Source: Candidatus Zixiibacteriota bacterium (lineage in GTDB: Bacteria; Zixibacteria; MSB-5A5; GN15; FEB-12). From it: DNA of 64,000 bases. How positions within the stretch are numbered: position 1 is the stretch's first letter; each line of letters begins with the position of its first letter. Positions 54,129 through 58,651 of the stretch are shown here, piece after piece. The notes under the pieces are model-generated. The model saw only the letters and a list, made by a program, of their open reading frames with translations, did not search any database and was not told where the DNA came from. The stretch is from contig JBFMGC010000012.1 in NCBI GenBank assembly GCA_040752815.1, forward strand, positions 1 through 64,000, written 5' to 3'. The translations under genes and the position numbers were made by a program.

Positions 54129-55466
54129 ATGGTAAGAAACCTGACCGTGCGAACTACCGTGGCCGCGATGGCGTTGTTTCTGCTGGTGCCCTCGGTTGTG
54201 GCGCAGTTCGGCTATCCCGAGGGGAAAATTGAAACTTTTGACGATCACCTGCTTGCCGACTACGCTTATTTCAAGACCGATGACCCGGACCTGGTCCGCC
54301 TGGAAATCTACTACCAAATCCACCATCGCGGACTGACATTCTCTCTCAGCGGCGAGAACTACACCGCGCGCTACGAGCTTACGGTCACGGTGACGGGCAA
54401 GGACGGGCGGCAGATTCAGTCGTTCACCCGCGACCGGCAGATTGTCCTGGGCGCCGACGAGGAAGCGCGCACCAGGATTGACTTCCGCACTAGCCAGATC
54501 AATATTGATCTGGCGCCGGGCAAGTACCAGGTCAGTTTCGAGATGAAAGACCAGACCTCCGGACGCCAGAGTCACCGGGAGATGGATGTGGATTTAAACT
54601 CGTTGATCGGCAAGCCGCCGCAAATATCGGAAATCGAATTCGCCCAGGCGTTCCAGCAGGGAAACGGGCAGGAGAGCGTTTTTTCCAAGGGTGACATCCT
54701 GGTCGTGCCGTCGGTGCACCGCACCTTCGGAGCGGTAGCCGGTGACCGAATCGCGTACTACTTCGAGGTGTATCCCGGCGACGAGGACTCCGAGAAGGTG
54801 GTTTTGGAGACCAAGGTACGGCACTATCGCCGAGGAATGGTTTACCGCGACACTCTGCATCTTTCTATAGGCCGCGAGCCGGAACGGCAGCTTCGGGAGA
54901 TATCGCTCGACCGGATGCTTCCGGGCGAGTATGAACTGGTCATATCGTTGCTCGGCCGGCGTAATAAGAAGCTGGCTGCCAGGGATCAGATGTTTCGCAT
55001 CGCCTGGACACAGGATGGGATGATCCGCAACGACTGGAAAGCGGTGGTGCGGCAGCTCGAGCTGTTTGCGGAGGATGTTGATGTCGGCGACATGGAAAAG
55101 CTGGAAACTGTGGAAGAACGGATAAAGGCCTTCGACCAGTTCTGGCTGGAGCGTGACCCCACCGATGGCACGCCCGAAAACGAAGCGAAAACGGCCTTTT
55201 ACTATCGCGTGCGAATTGCCAACGAACGGTTCGGTGTCATGCAGCGCGAGGGCTGGCGGACCGACCGGGGCCGCATATACATCCAGTACGGAGAGCCGGA
55301 TTATCTCGTCAACGAGCCCTTCTCGCCTGACCGTCGTCCCTATCAGGTATGGTACTACACGAGCATCTCGCCCAATAGGCGTTTCTTGTTCATAGATGAA
55401 AACGAGGATGGAGACTACCGCCTGCAGTATCCGTACGACGGGCTCGGCACGACAGTCGGATTCTAA
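54129..55466 (+). CDS. GWxTD-domain exported protein, first copy
   Basis: 445 residues. A signal peptide is visible (AAMALFLLVPSVVAQ). The body is rich in beta-strands with no further named family. Near residue 378 it carries the GWxTD signature as GWRTDRGRIYIQYGEPD, which defines the GWxTD domain, widespread in FCB and Acidobacteria-like genomes; its function is unknown. An upstream stretch includes AVVRQLELFAEDVDVGDMEKLE and VEERIKAFDQFWLERDPT, typical of the conserved linker before the motif. A second GWxTD gene follows 18 bases after. Confidence 0.85.
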   Translation: MVRNLTVRTTVAAMALFLLVPSVVAQFGYPEGKIETFDDHLLADYAYFKTDDPDLVRLEIYYQIHHRGLTFSLSGENYTARYELTVTVTGKDGRQIQSFTRDRQIVLGADEEARTRIDFRTSQINIDLAPGKYQVSFEMKDQTSGRQSHREMDVDLNSLIGKPPQISEIEFAQAFQQGNGQESVFSKGDILVVPSVHRTFGAVAGDRIAYYFEVYPGDEDSEKVVLETKVRHYRRGMVYRDTLHLSIGREPERQLREISLDRMLPGEYELVISLLGRRNKKLAARDQMFRIAWTQDGMIRNDWKAVVRQLELFAEDVDVGDMEKLETVEERIKAFDQFWLERDPTDGTPENEAKTAFYYRVRIANERFGVMQREGWRTDRGRIYIQYGEPDYLVNEPFSPDRRPYQVWYYTSISPNRRFLFIDENEDGDYRLQYPYDGLGTTVGF

Positions 55467-55484
55467 TCAGGCGGTTACACGATT

Positions 55485-56918
55485 ATGCGCGTAACTCTGC
55501 GTAAACCGACAGTATGGATAATGCTGACCACTCTTGTCATTGCGGCCGGAGCCGCTCAGGCTCAGCCCGGCCGACGGCCCCTCACGGTGAGGGGAAGTAC
55601 GGTTGTTTTCAACCGGCCGGAATTTGACTCGTTGGTCCTGCTGGAATTTCCGTTCGTGCTGAATCGCAGCGAATATTCTTTCTACCGGCCTGATAGCCTG
55701 GCGGGTGGGCCGCTCTATGCCCGCATCTTTGCACAAATCAATTTGTATGGTGTCGACGGTCTTCCCCTGGACTCCGCCAATACCTACTTTTCGGCGGCGG
55801 TGAGCGATTCATCCGAAGCCTCTAAGGCTGATTATAGTCTATTCAACAGCTTAGTGCTGGTGGTCCAACCGGGGATCTACTCCGCGCGGCTGAGCGTGAT
55901 CGATGCGGTCAGTAAGCGGGAGGGGGAGCACTTTATTGACCGGATCAACGTCGAGCCGCCGGTGAAAGACCGCCTCTCGCTTGGAGGTAAGTGTCTCGCT
56001 TTTCAGATTTCGTATGTCGGCCAGTCTCCCGCCATGGGCATCGGCGTGCCCAGGAACGGCTACGAGGTTCGGACTAACCCGGTTGCTGCATACTCGACTC
56101 GTGACTCGGTGGCCTTCGTCTATGCCGAGCTGTACAATCTGAGGTATGATTCACTGGCGCCCTCAAGTTTCGAGACCGCTCTGAGCGTAACTGATGCCGC
56201 CGGCAGCACCGTGCTGCCCCCGTCCGGAAAGTCTCGGCGCAAGCCGGGTAGGTCGGCGGTGTTGGCTGAGTCGTTCGAGATTAAGGGCTGGGCTCCCGGT
56301 TCGTACACGCTTCAGGTAAGTGCAGCGGATCGTACCGCCGGGCAGGAGGTCAGCAGCGAGATTCCGTTTGCGATTGTGGCTCCCGCACCCGCGCCGGCGC
56401 AGGGTTCCGGCGGAAACGGGACGGACCCGGTCGGCGCTCTTGATCTTGAGACCGAACTGCGCCTGTTCTACTATGTGCTCTCGCCGGTTGAAAAGAGGGC
56501 ACTCGTGGGACTCACCGACGACGGTAAGCGGGAGTTTGCAAAGCGATTCTGGGAGGAGAGGGACCCGGACCCGACCACTCCTCTGCCTGAAAACCGGCTC
56601 GAAATGTACGAGCGATACGTATACTGCAACAATTTCTTCTCGGTCGAGGAGGGAAAGACCGACGGCTGGTATACTCAGCGGGGGCGGATCTACATGACCT
56701 ACGGCCCACCCGACAAGCTCGACGACTACTCGCACCCAACCAGCGGCCACCCGGTGCAGTTCTGGTGGTACTATGAGCTGAAGGAAGGGAAGGTGTTTGT
56801 CTTTCAGGACGAAGACGGCTTCGGCAACTTCAACCTCGTCCATTCGACTATGGAGGGTGAGATGTTCGACAAAAGGTGGGATGCCGCCCTTAAGGCCGGG
56901 GAGATTCTGGTGGAGTAG
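55485..56918 (+). CDS. GWxTD-domain exported protein, second copy
   Basis: 477 residues with a signal peptide (TTLVIAAGAAQAQ). As in the first copy, beta-rich regions lead to the C-terminal domain, where the signature reads GWYTQRGRIYMTYGPPD (the Asp of GWxTD is Gln). The preceding linker KRALVGLTDDGKREFAKRFWEERDPDP is homologous to the first copy. It probably acts with its neighbour, as part of an extracytoplasmic machine of unknown role. The next genes converge on it from the right. Confidence 0.83.
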   Translation: MRVTLRKPTVWIMLTTLVIAAGAAQAQPGRRPLTVRGSTVVFNRPEFDSLVLLEFPFVLNRSEYSFYRPDSLAGGPLYARIFAQINLYGVDGLPLDSANTYFSAAVSDSSEASKADYSLFNSLVLVVQPGIYSARLSVIDAVSKREGEHFIDRINVEPPVKDRLSLGGKCLAFQISYVGQSPAMGIGVPRNGYEVRTNPVAAYSTRDSVAFVYAELYNLRYDSLAPSSFETALSVTDAAGSTVLPPSGKSRRKPGRSAVLAESFEIKGWAPGSYTLQVSAADRTAGQEVSSEIPFAIVAPAPAPAQGSGGNGTDPVGALDLETELRLFYYVLSPVEKRALVGLTDDGKREFAKRFWEERDPDPTTPLPENRLEMYERYVYCNNFFSVEEGKTDGWYTQRGRIYMTYGPPDKLDDYSHPTSGHPVQFWWYYELKEGKVFVFQDEDGFGNFNLVHSTMEGEMFDKRWDAALKAGEILVE

Positions 56919-57133: not shown

Positions 57134-57886
57134 TCAGTGCGAGCTGCTCGCAGGCTGGGAGGTCTCGCCGGTCTTCGCGGCGTTCGGCTCCTTAACCGAC
57201 CGCTTCACGGGCACTGTGAACCGAATCCCCTTGTCCTTCTCGACCTCGATCGTGAAGGATTTCTCGAACGAACGCTCGAGCACCTGCGGCTTGAGCTTTA
57301 TCTCGCCGCTGGCGGTTTCACCGGGGCCGATCTTTTTCGGAAGCGTGATCTCCGCGAACTGGGGCAGATCCGCCACGAGTTTGAGCGCCAACTCCTCGTC
57401 GGCAGCATTCGTGATCGTGAACTTCATCTTATCCCGCACCTTGTCGCCGAACTGGGAGATATCCAGCTTATAGGGCTTGATGATGATCGGGTAGGTCGAG
57501 TCCGGGCGCTGAATGACATCGGCTGAAATCGACACCGTCTTATCCGGCGGGCCTTCGTTGGTAGTGATACGCGGCCGCTTGGTAACCTTCTGGTTGTAAG
57601 TCCGGGTACTAAAGATGATTTCAAGCGCAGTGCTGTCACCGACAGCAAGCTCCGATTTTTCCAACGGAGCCTTGGTGCAGCCTCAACCCGGGTTCACTTT
57701 CTCGATTTTCAGCGTGTCTGCGCCCCGATTGTAGACCCAGAAGACGTGGGTAATCTCGGAGTTTTGCGGGACATATCCAAAGTCGAACTCGGTCTCGGAC
57801 AGCTCCATCAGCGGCGCCGCCATAACCGGCGCGCTGACGAGTGCAGCCAGTCCCAAAATCAAAACCGTCAGTAGAGGTTTGGTCAT
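57134..57886 (-). CDS. DUF1573 exported protein with in-frame TGA at a conserved Cys: candidate selenoprotein
   Basis: If TGA at 57685-57683 is read through, one continuous 250-residue frame results. The first 67 residues hold a signal peptide (LTVLILGLAALVSAPVMAA) and the start of a DUF1573 domain (TEFDFGYVPQNSEITHVF). It ends KVNPG just before the TGA, then continues GCTKAPLEKSELAVGDS in the same frame. In the DUF1573 family the expected motif is CGCT, and the upstream neighbour reads KTGCGCL, so the TGA replaces the first Cys of Cys-Gly-Cys. After the TGA the domain continues (ALEIIFSTRTYNQKV, VISADVIQ) to a Ser-rich C-terminus. A hairpin follows the TGA. The alternative is a nonsense mutation or a sequencing error. 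It is 30 bases downstream of the other DUF1573 gene. The start is the ATG at 57886. Confidence 0.75.
57642..57685 (-). promoter_or_regulatory. Putative bacterial SECIS element after the in-frame TGA
   Basis: On the minus strand the TGA is followed, after 9 bases, by AAGGCTCCG, a 10-base loop TTGGAAAAAT, and CGGAGCTT: eight pairs with one bulged G. The stem can be extended outward by four more pairs across a single C-C mismatch. The apical loop starts 18 bases after the TGA and contains GG, compatible with the known bacterial SECIS range (about 16-37 bases), although the first loop base is T. A second hairpin, GCTGTC-GGT-GACAGC, starts slightly farther on and could compete. Confidence 0.5.
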
Positions 57887-57916: not shown

Positions 57917-58651
57917 CTACTTCGCGCTATTCTCTGTTGTCGTAAACACCGGACGGAAACTGAAGTCTCCGCAAACCACGGGTATTGTTACCCGAAACGG
58001 CGCCTCCTGGTTCCCGGCCAACTCCATAGTAAAGGAGCTTTCAAACGGTGGAGGTGGCCCGTCGGAACTACGGCTGACATAACCGGTCGCCGGGGTCCCG
58101 GGATCGATGGTCTCAGGCAACACCACGCTAATGCCGGGGCCTGTCTCGATTAGACTGACCTTCAGTTCTGACCCGCGCTTGTTCACCATCTGCACGACTT
58201 GCCTGGTACTCGCTTCCTGATTCCGGGCCAGCACCAGTACCGTCGGTGTCCAAACAAGAGATGCATTCGGCGAAGACGGCGTTACTACGTTTCCTTTCAA
58301 CGGTACTTCTACCGGGAAAGGGCTTAGTTCGACATACAGGTAAGCCGACACCTCCTGGGGTCCGAGCGATCCTCTTGTTTGCCAATAGAGTACAACCCCC
58401 ATGCTGTCTCCGGGCAGGATGATAGTTTCGGCCGCGGTGCTGGTCAGGCAGCCGCAGCCGGTCTTTATCTCCGTCACCCTGGCTGTATCCCTTTCGCCTC
58501 CTTGAAGCCAAACCCGGTGAACCACCGTTGCGTTAGGCGGCAGCAGGCCGAAGTCGAATTCGGTATTGTCCACTCGAAAGCCCGAATCCGCAGCGACAGT
58601 CGGTACAGCCAAACCGACAAGTATGAGAACAAGACCGATTGTGAGCCGCAT
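57917..58651 (-). CDS. DUF1573 exported protein with intact Cys-Gly-Cys
   Basis: 244 residues. A signal peptide (GLVLILVGLAVPTVAAD) precedes a DUF1573 domain beginning TEFDFGLLPPNATVVHRVW. The motif that is interrupted in the neighbour is intact here (TGCGCLTST). DUF1573 is an Ig-like fold common in Bacteroidetes-type exported proteins, function unknown; the two vicinal cysteines may form a disulphide or metal site. It is the first gene of a two-gene minus-strand unit with the candidate selenoprotein, and has its own promoter. Confidence 0.87.
   Translation of the reverse strand: MRLTIGLVLILVGLAVPTVAADSGFRVDNTEFDFGLLPPNATVVHRVWLQGGERDTARVTEIKTGCGCLTSTAAETIILPGDSMGVVLYWQTRGSLGPQEVSAYLYVELSPFPVEVPLKGNVVTPSSPNASLVWTPTVLVLARNQEASTRQVVQMVNKRGSELKVSLIETGPGISVVLPETIDPGTPATGYVSRSSDGPPPPFESSFTMELAGNQEAPFRVTIPVVCGDFSFRPVFTTTENSAK

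Follow-up and report, generated by a model that had tools for sequence, protein, structure and literature searches.

Is the in-frame TGA at codon 68 of a DUF1573 gene from a Candidatus Zixiibacteriota genome read as selenocysteine (Sec), and which RNA signal would direct such a reading? The gene occupies 57137..57886 on the minus strand of the window, a term that here denotes the whole stretch of 64,000 nucleotides that was analysed; its frame runs from an ATG at 57886 to a natural stop, likewise TGA, at 57134..57136 (minus strand), and encodes 250 amino acids. The in-frame TGA (57683..57685, minus strand) is situated between KVNPG and GCTKAP, and the frame that follows is free of stops up to the natural C-terminus, both as claimed in a sequence-only reading of this locus. 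The interval put forward there, 57642-57886, contains the real site and covers only the 5' part of the gene.

The read-through protein scores 87.7 bits with the DUF1573 family model (PF07610; curated cut-off 26.1), the domain comprising residues 28-124, and a second Ig-like domain is present in addition. Cys70, encoded by TGC at 57677..57679 on the minus strand, would act as the resolving cysteine of a Sec-Gly-Cys motif. The signal-peptide-like N-terminus of this putatively exported protein, MTKPLLTVLILGLAALVSAPVMAA (57815..57886, minus strand), was read from the sequence and appears as a helix at residues 3-16 in the AlphaFold model. A Cys-type DUF1573 paralogue is located 30 bp upstream of the selenoprotein gene (57917..58651, minus strand) and carries TGCGCL at the aligned site, as had also been claimed. 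A further Cys-type paralogue, with 48% identity to the selenoprotein, is found elsewhere in the same genome (G000:C31:24663-25373). The conserved neighbours of the selenoprotein gene are the Cys-type paralogue on its upstream side and convergent GWxTD-domain genes on its downstream side; two of the latter stand in tandem at 54129-56918 of the window, and 44 of the 53 Sec loci have GWxTD-related genes downstream. No redox gene was found among the conserved neighbours of the Sec DUF1573 gene.

The reading favoured here, to which a probability of about 0.8 is assigned, is that of an exported Ig-like DUF1573 selenoprotein in which the second of two hairpins after the UGA serves as the SelB site, the first serves as a spacer, and the Sec-containing motif forms a periplasmic redox centre.

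Selenocysteine machinery and conservation of the TGA

The sequence-only reading had proposed looking for selA, selB, selC and selD in the genome, which measures 3.19 Mb and is estimated to be 100% complete, and all of them are present: a tRNA-Sec with anticodon TCA (66.9 bits), selA (415 bits) with selB directly after it on the same contig, and selD (379.6 bits), which has one in-frame TGA of its own. This selD (L128, G000:C14:36723-37646, minus strand) is itself a selenoprotein gene, characterized by a CAG-Sec-ASKL motif and a canonical SECIS element whose loop lies 20 nt after the TGA. Several relatives possess, as a separate observation, a second selD-like gene without a TGA in a long open frame of approximately 560-750 amino acids (L163-L171), perhaps encoding a fusion protein.

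Among 99 related genomes, 78 gave a tRNA-Sec match above the cut-off and 86 a selB match. The other 21 gave no tRNA-Sec match, 19 of them negative again in a laxer search, and most of the relatives concerned have selB or a fragmented assembly. In two of them, G061 and G097, neither selB nor tRNA-Sec was matched, yet they carry the gene with the TGA or the hairpin pattern belonging to it, so that contigs may be missing or Sec decoding may have been lost; the selD of G061 also contains a TGA, which suggests missing contigs rather than a loss of Sec decoding in that genome.

A DUF1573 homologue was found in 98 of the 99 relatives, most of which have one bearing a single in-frame TGA, and nearly every close orthologue contains exactly one. 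Wherever loci were read base by base, the in-frame TGA was always the Sec68 codon, and the same TGA is found in orthologues of several families. The related loci were recovered with an alignment query, a single-protein query of the genome contigs having given no match, and no DUF1573 relatives were found in viral contigs. In the 80 aligned loci, for which nearly all titled records belong to Candidatus Zixiibacteriota, TGA stands at the site in 53 copies and another codon in 81, nearly all of the latter being TGC or TGT, so the TGA/Cys alternation that the sequence-only reading had suggested seeking among homologues is indeed present. When the gene is compared with that of its closest named relative, base changes fall mainly at third codon positions both before and after the TGA, with 38, 24 and 89 differences at positions 1, 2 and 3, respectively, downstream of it. 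Considering the Sec machinery in the genome, the retention of TGA in relatives and the TGC or TGT codons of the Cys paralogues, the identification of a true selenoprotein gene with Sec inserted at residue 68 is strongly supported at the sequence level. The candidate raised by the earlier reading is thus upheld by the complete machinery, the Sec/Cys alternation and a SECIS limited to Sec copies. At the sequence level, DUF1573 is shown to be a selenoprotein conserved across an entire uncultured phylum, one that ordinary gene callers would cut at residue 67.

Two hairpins downstream of the UGA

The coding region after the UGA contains two adjoining hairpins. Hairpin 1 (57647..57672, minus strand) has an 8-bp stem, extends from nt 11 to 36 after the TGA and is variable but compensated; its loop in the window lies 18-20 nt after the UGA. 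Hairpin 2 (57632..57646, minus strand) follows at nt 37-51 with the sequence GCUGUC-GGU-GACAGC, representing a near-invariant GCUGUC-GGY-GACAGY pattern of Sec copies with a 6-bp stem and a GGY triloop located 42 nt after the UGA. The sequence-only reading had described a SECIS-like hairpin about 18 nt after the TGA, which proved real and compensated (57672-57647); the likeliest SelB element, however, is the invariant hairpin next to it, which went unmentioned.

The conservation of hairpin 2 extends to the nucleotide level. The sequence GCTGTCGGYGACAGY, at the codons for AVGDS, is common to Sec copies with silent positions included and is absent as such from Cys copies, and exceptions among 59 unique Sec sequences are few and small, affecting the outer pair or a loop base. 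In a set of 54 sequences, hairpin 2 is 99.7% paired, five of its six pairs being invariant. Its exact pattern was found in 82 of the 99 relatives, with about one match per genome, mostly at the DUF1573 gene where coordinates can be compared, and the reversed pattern occurs almost never. In the same number of sequences (54), hairpin 1 is 81% paired and shows 29 doubly changed cells, compared with 12.9 for shuffles (0 of 500), with covariation that includes a silent Ala wobble base paired with the second base of a later codon. Synonymous-codon randomisation indicates strong selection on both hairpins in Sec copies and none in Cys copies, the mean z being -4.0 versus -0.3 for hairpin 2 and -2.7 versus -0.1 for hairpin 1. 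RNAalifold applied to the alignment reported hairpin 2 and not hairpin 1, because the register of the latter shifts or breaks in some copies; hairpin 1 was therefore assessed by pair counts and the synonymous-codon null instead.

In terms of energy, hairpin 1 amounts to about -11.4 to -11.8 kcal/mol, hairpin 2 alone to -6.8 kcal/mol and the tandem of both to -18.8 kcal/mol; when 72 nt of the window RNA are folded, the pair probability of hairpin 2 is approximately 0.84. For the first 51 nt of the window RNA, the minimum-energy fold is a rival in which part of hairpin 2 pairs elsewhere (-20.6 versus -18.8 kcal/mol). Its long-range lower stem, joining nt 2-9 to nt 43-51, was set aside: Cys copies form it nearly as often as Sec copies (77% versus 87%), so that it is not Sec-specific, and it would presumably be melted by the ribosome.

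The published bacterial SECIS (bSECIS) model specifies a distance of 16-37 nt from the UGA to the apical loop and a minimum free energy of at most -7.5 kcal/mol (PMC13188914). The elements described here agree with it in placing within the coding region, directly downstream of the UGA, a hairpin whose small apical loop has a G and then a second G or a U. They differ in that the conserved GGY loop is positioned at 42 nt, outside the range, and is separated from the UGA by another, compensated hairpin. Hairpin 1, at 18-20 nt, falls inside the range and in the window can satisfy the model by itself (-11.8 kcal/mol). It is consequently conceivable, though unlikely, that hairpin 1 is the SelB-binding SECIS and that hairpin 2 plays an accessory part, for example by slowing the ribosome or stabilising the structure. 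The loop of hairpin 1 begins with GG when an inner U-A pair is included, and the hairpin is both compensated and Sec-specific. Against this assignment, the loop is not conserved, G being found at loop positions 21-22 in 49 of 59 Sec copies and 71 of 91 Cys copies; many copies have a disrupted stem; and it is hairpin 2 that is invariant and carries a G[G/U]N triloop, as does the selD SECIS of the same genomes.

In 12 selD genes from these genomes, the SECIS consists of a 7-bp stem with compensated changes and a GUU or GGU triloop positioned 20 nt after the UGA. The DUF1573 hairpin 2 shares with it a stem of 6-7 bp, a G[G/U]U triloop and the same SelB, while the selD element has no intervening hairpin and a stem that varies with compensation rather than being invariant. 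Since the shape of the selD SECIS matches hairpin 2 and not hairpin 1 with its unconserved loop, hairpin 2 is taken to be the SelB site. SelB carrying Sec-tRNA-Sec would bind its 6-bp stem and GGY triloop, and hairpin 1 would fold out the 24-26 nt between the UGA and hairpin 2, bringing the effective distance of the SelB site to approximately 18 nt from the UGA, near the 20 nt of selD. A tandem-hairpin SECIS of this kind, in which SelB recognises the GGY hairpin 42 nt after the UGA across the phylum, hairpin 1 is a spacer and the signal also fixes Val82 of the protein, is regarded as probable. If true, it would extend the range of spacings accepted for SECIS elements, and the two genes would offer a natural test of how far SelB can reach from the UGA, with the same SelB and the same triloop at 20 versus 42 nt.

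Exchange between selenocysteine and cysteine

As hairpin 2 sits in coding sequence, it would fix the peptide AVGDS, including Val82, whose GTC codon (57641..57643, minus strand) falls within the hairpin 2 stem and which is Val in all Sec copies read. At residue 82, each of the 53 Sec copies has Val, and 69 of the 81 Cys copies have Pro; nearly all Cys paralogues have Pro, Ser or Ala. In a phylogeny for which residues 68 and 82 were masked, there are at least 8-12 changes between Sec and Cys. Of 8 supported independent Sec/Cys pairs, 7-8 have hairpin 2 on the Sec side and 6-7 have Val82 there; no pair shows the opposite arrangement for either feature. The hairpin is also a clear example of an RNA signal that determines residues of the protein, for which several independent reversions from Sec to Cys serve as controls.

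In one locus, a Cys (TGC) copy adjoining its Sec sister (L121:1824-2435 with L121:749-1366) keeps an intact hairpin 2 and has apparently undergone a recent Sec-to-Cys change; the corresponding Cys copy of L122 is without hairpin 2. SECIS remnants in Cys copies have been reported earlier for other families (PMC1794560). Tandem duplication recurs, with one copy Sec and the others Cys, which argues that the two DUF1573 forms are probably not interchangeable.

The Sec/Cys alternation also bears on readings of the TGA that involve no Sec at all. Under standard annotation the gene would end at the TGA, leaving a pseudogene or a 67-residue protein; a 176-aa ORF that starts with TTG lies downstream, and on this view the remaining frame would be decaying or separately translated. 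This true-stop reading is refuted in practice by the same TGA across families, the purifying pattern after it, the Sec-specific hairpins, the alternation with Cys and the Sec machinery. A variant code in which TGA specifies Trp or Gly would likewise produce an in-frame TGA with a conserved downstream frame, and is highly improbable given that Cys codons are the sole alternative to TGA at this site in close homologues, that tRNA-Sec, selA, selB and selD are present, and that TGA is an ordinary stop here, ending 17 of 37 large ORFs in the window as well as the selenoprotein gene itself. The machinery, the TGA/Cys alternation, the third-position changes and the use of TGA as a normal stop similarly render a sequencing slip very unlikely.

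Protein fold, proposed role and known systems

The AlphaFold model of the DUF1573 selenoprotein comprises two all-beta Ig-like domains (pLDDT 92.7), and an Ig-like Pfam match, PF22544, was obtained. The top Foldseek matches are HYDIN/ASH domains, with 2qsv as the best bacterial match; neither CsgC nor nDsbD is among the 50 best matches, and a sequence search found no solved structure. The nearest functional precedents, nDsbD and CsgC, are periplasmic Ig-like folds with a close redox thiol pair, and a full-length DsbD is encoded in the genome, on which grounds a role in periplasmic selenol/thiol-disulfide exchange is proposed for the DUF1573 protein. CsgC, an Ig fold with CxC, has a redox potential of -139 mV, compared with -167 mV for a CGC tripeptide (PMC3173608). 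The DUF1573 protein differs from these precedents in belonging to the HYDIN/ASH Ig subtype, in having two domains and in bearing Sec in place of the first Cys, and its function is a predicted one. In the proposed mechanism, Sec68-Gly-Cys70 would form a periplasmic redox centre of the selenenylsulfide/thiol type, exchange with disulfides of partner proteins and probably be kept reduced by the DsbD pathway. The presence of Sec offers a handle on DUF1573 by pointing to the UGC/CGC pair as the redox centre.

The DUF1573 selenoprotein family itself is already known and is not new. The sequence-only reading had suggested that no DUF1573 selenoprotein had been described, which was mistaken, as DUF1573 (PF07610) is listed as a selenoprotein family with the motif UGC in two reviews (PMC9312934, PMC13188914). 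These reviews credit it to Zhang and Gladyshev 2007, from a deltaproteobacterial symbiont of Olavius algarvensis. So far as the review entries describe it, the listed selenoprotein is alike in Pfam family and Sec-Gly-Cys motif, and the protein described here differs in belonging to the phylum Zixiibacteriota, which the 2026 review does not name (PMC13188914). The SECIS layout is given in neither DUF1573 table row (PMC9312934, PMC13188914), and the two-hairpin layout appears to be new.

Elsewhere in the window, a cobalamin riboswitch (RF00174, 121 bits) is located at 1576-1765 on the plus strand.
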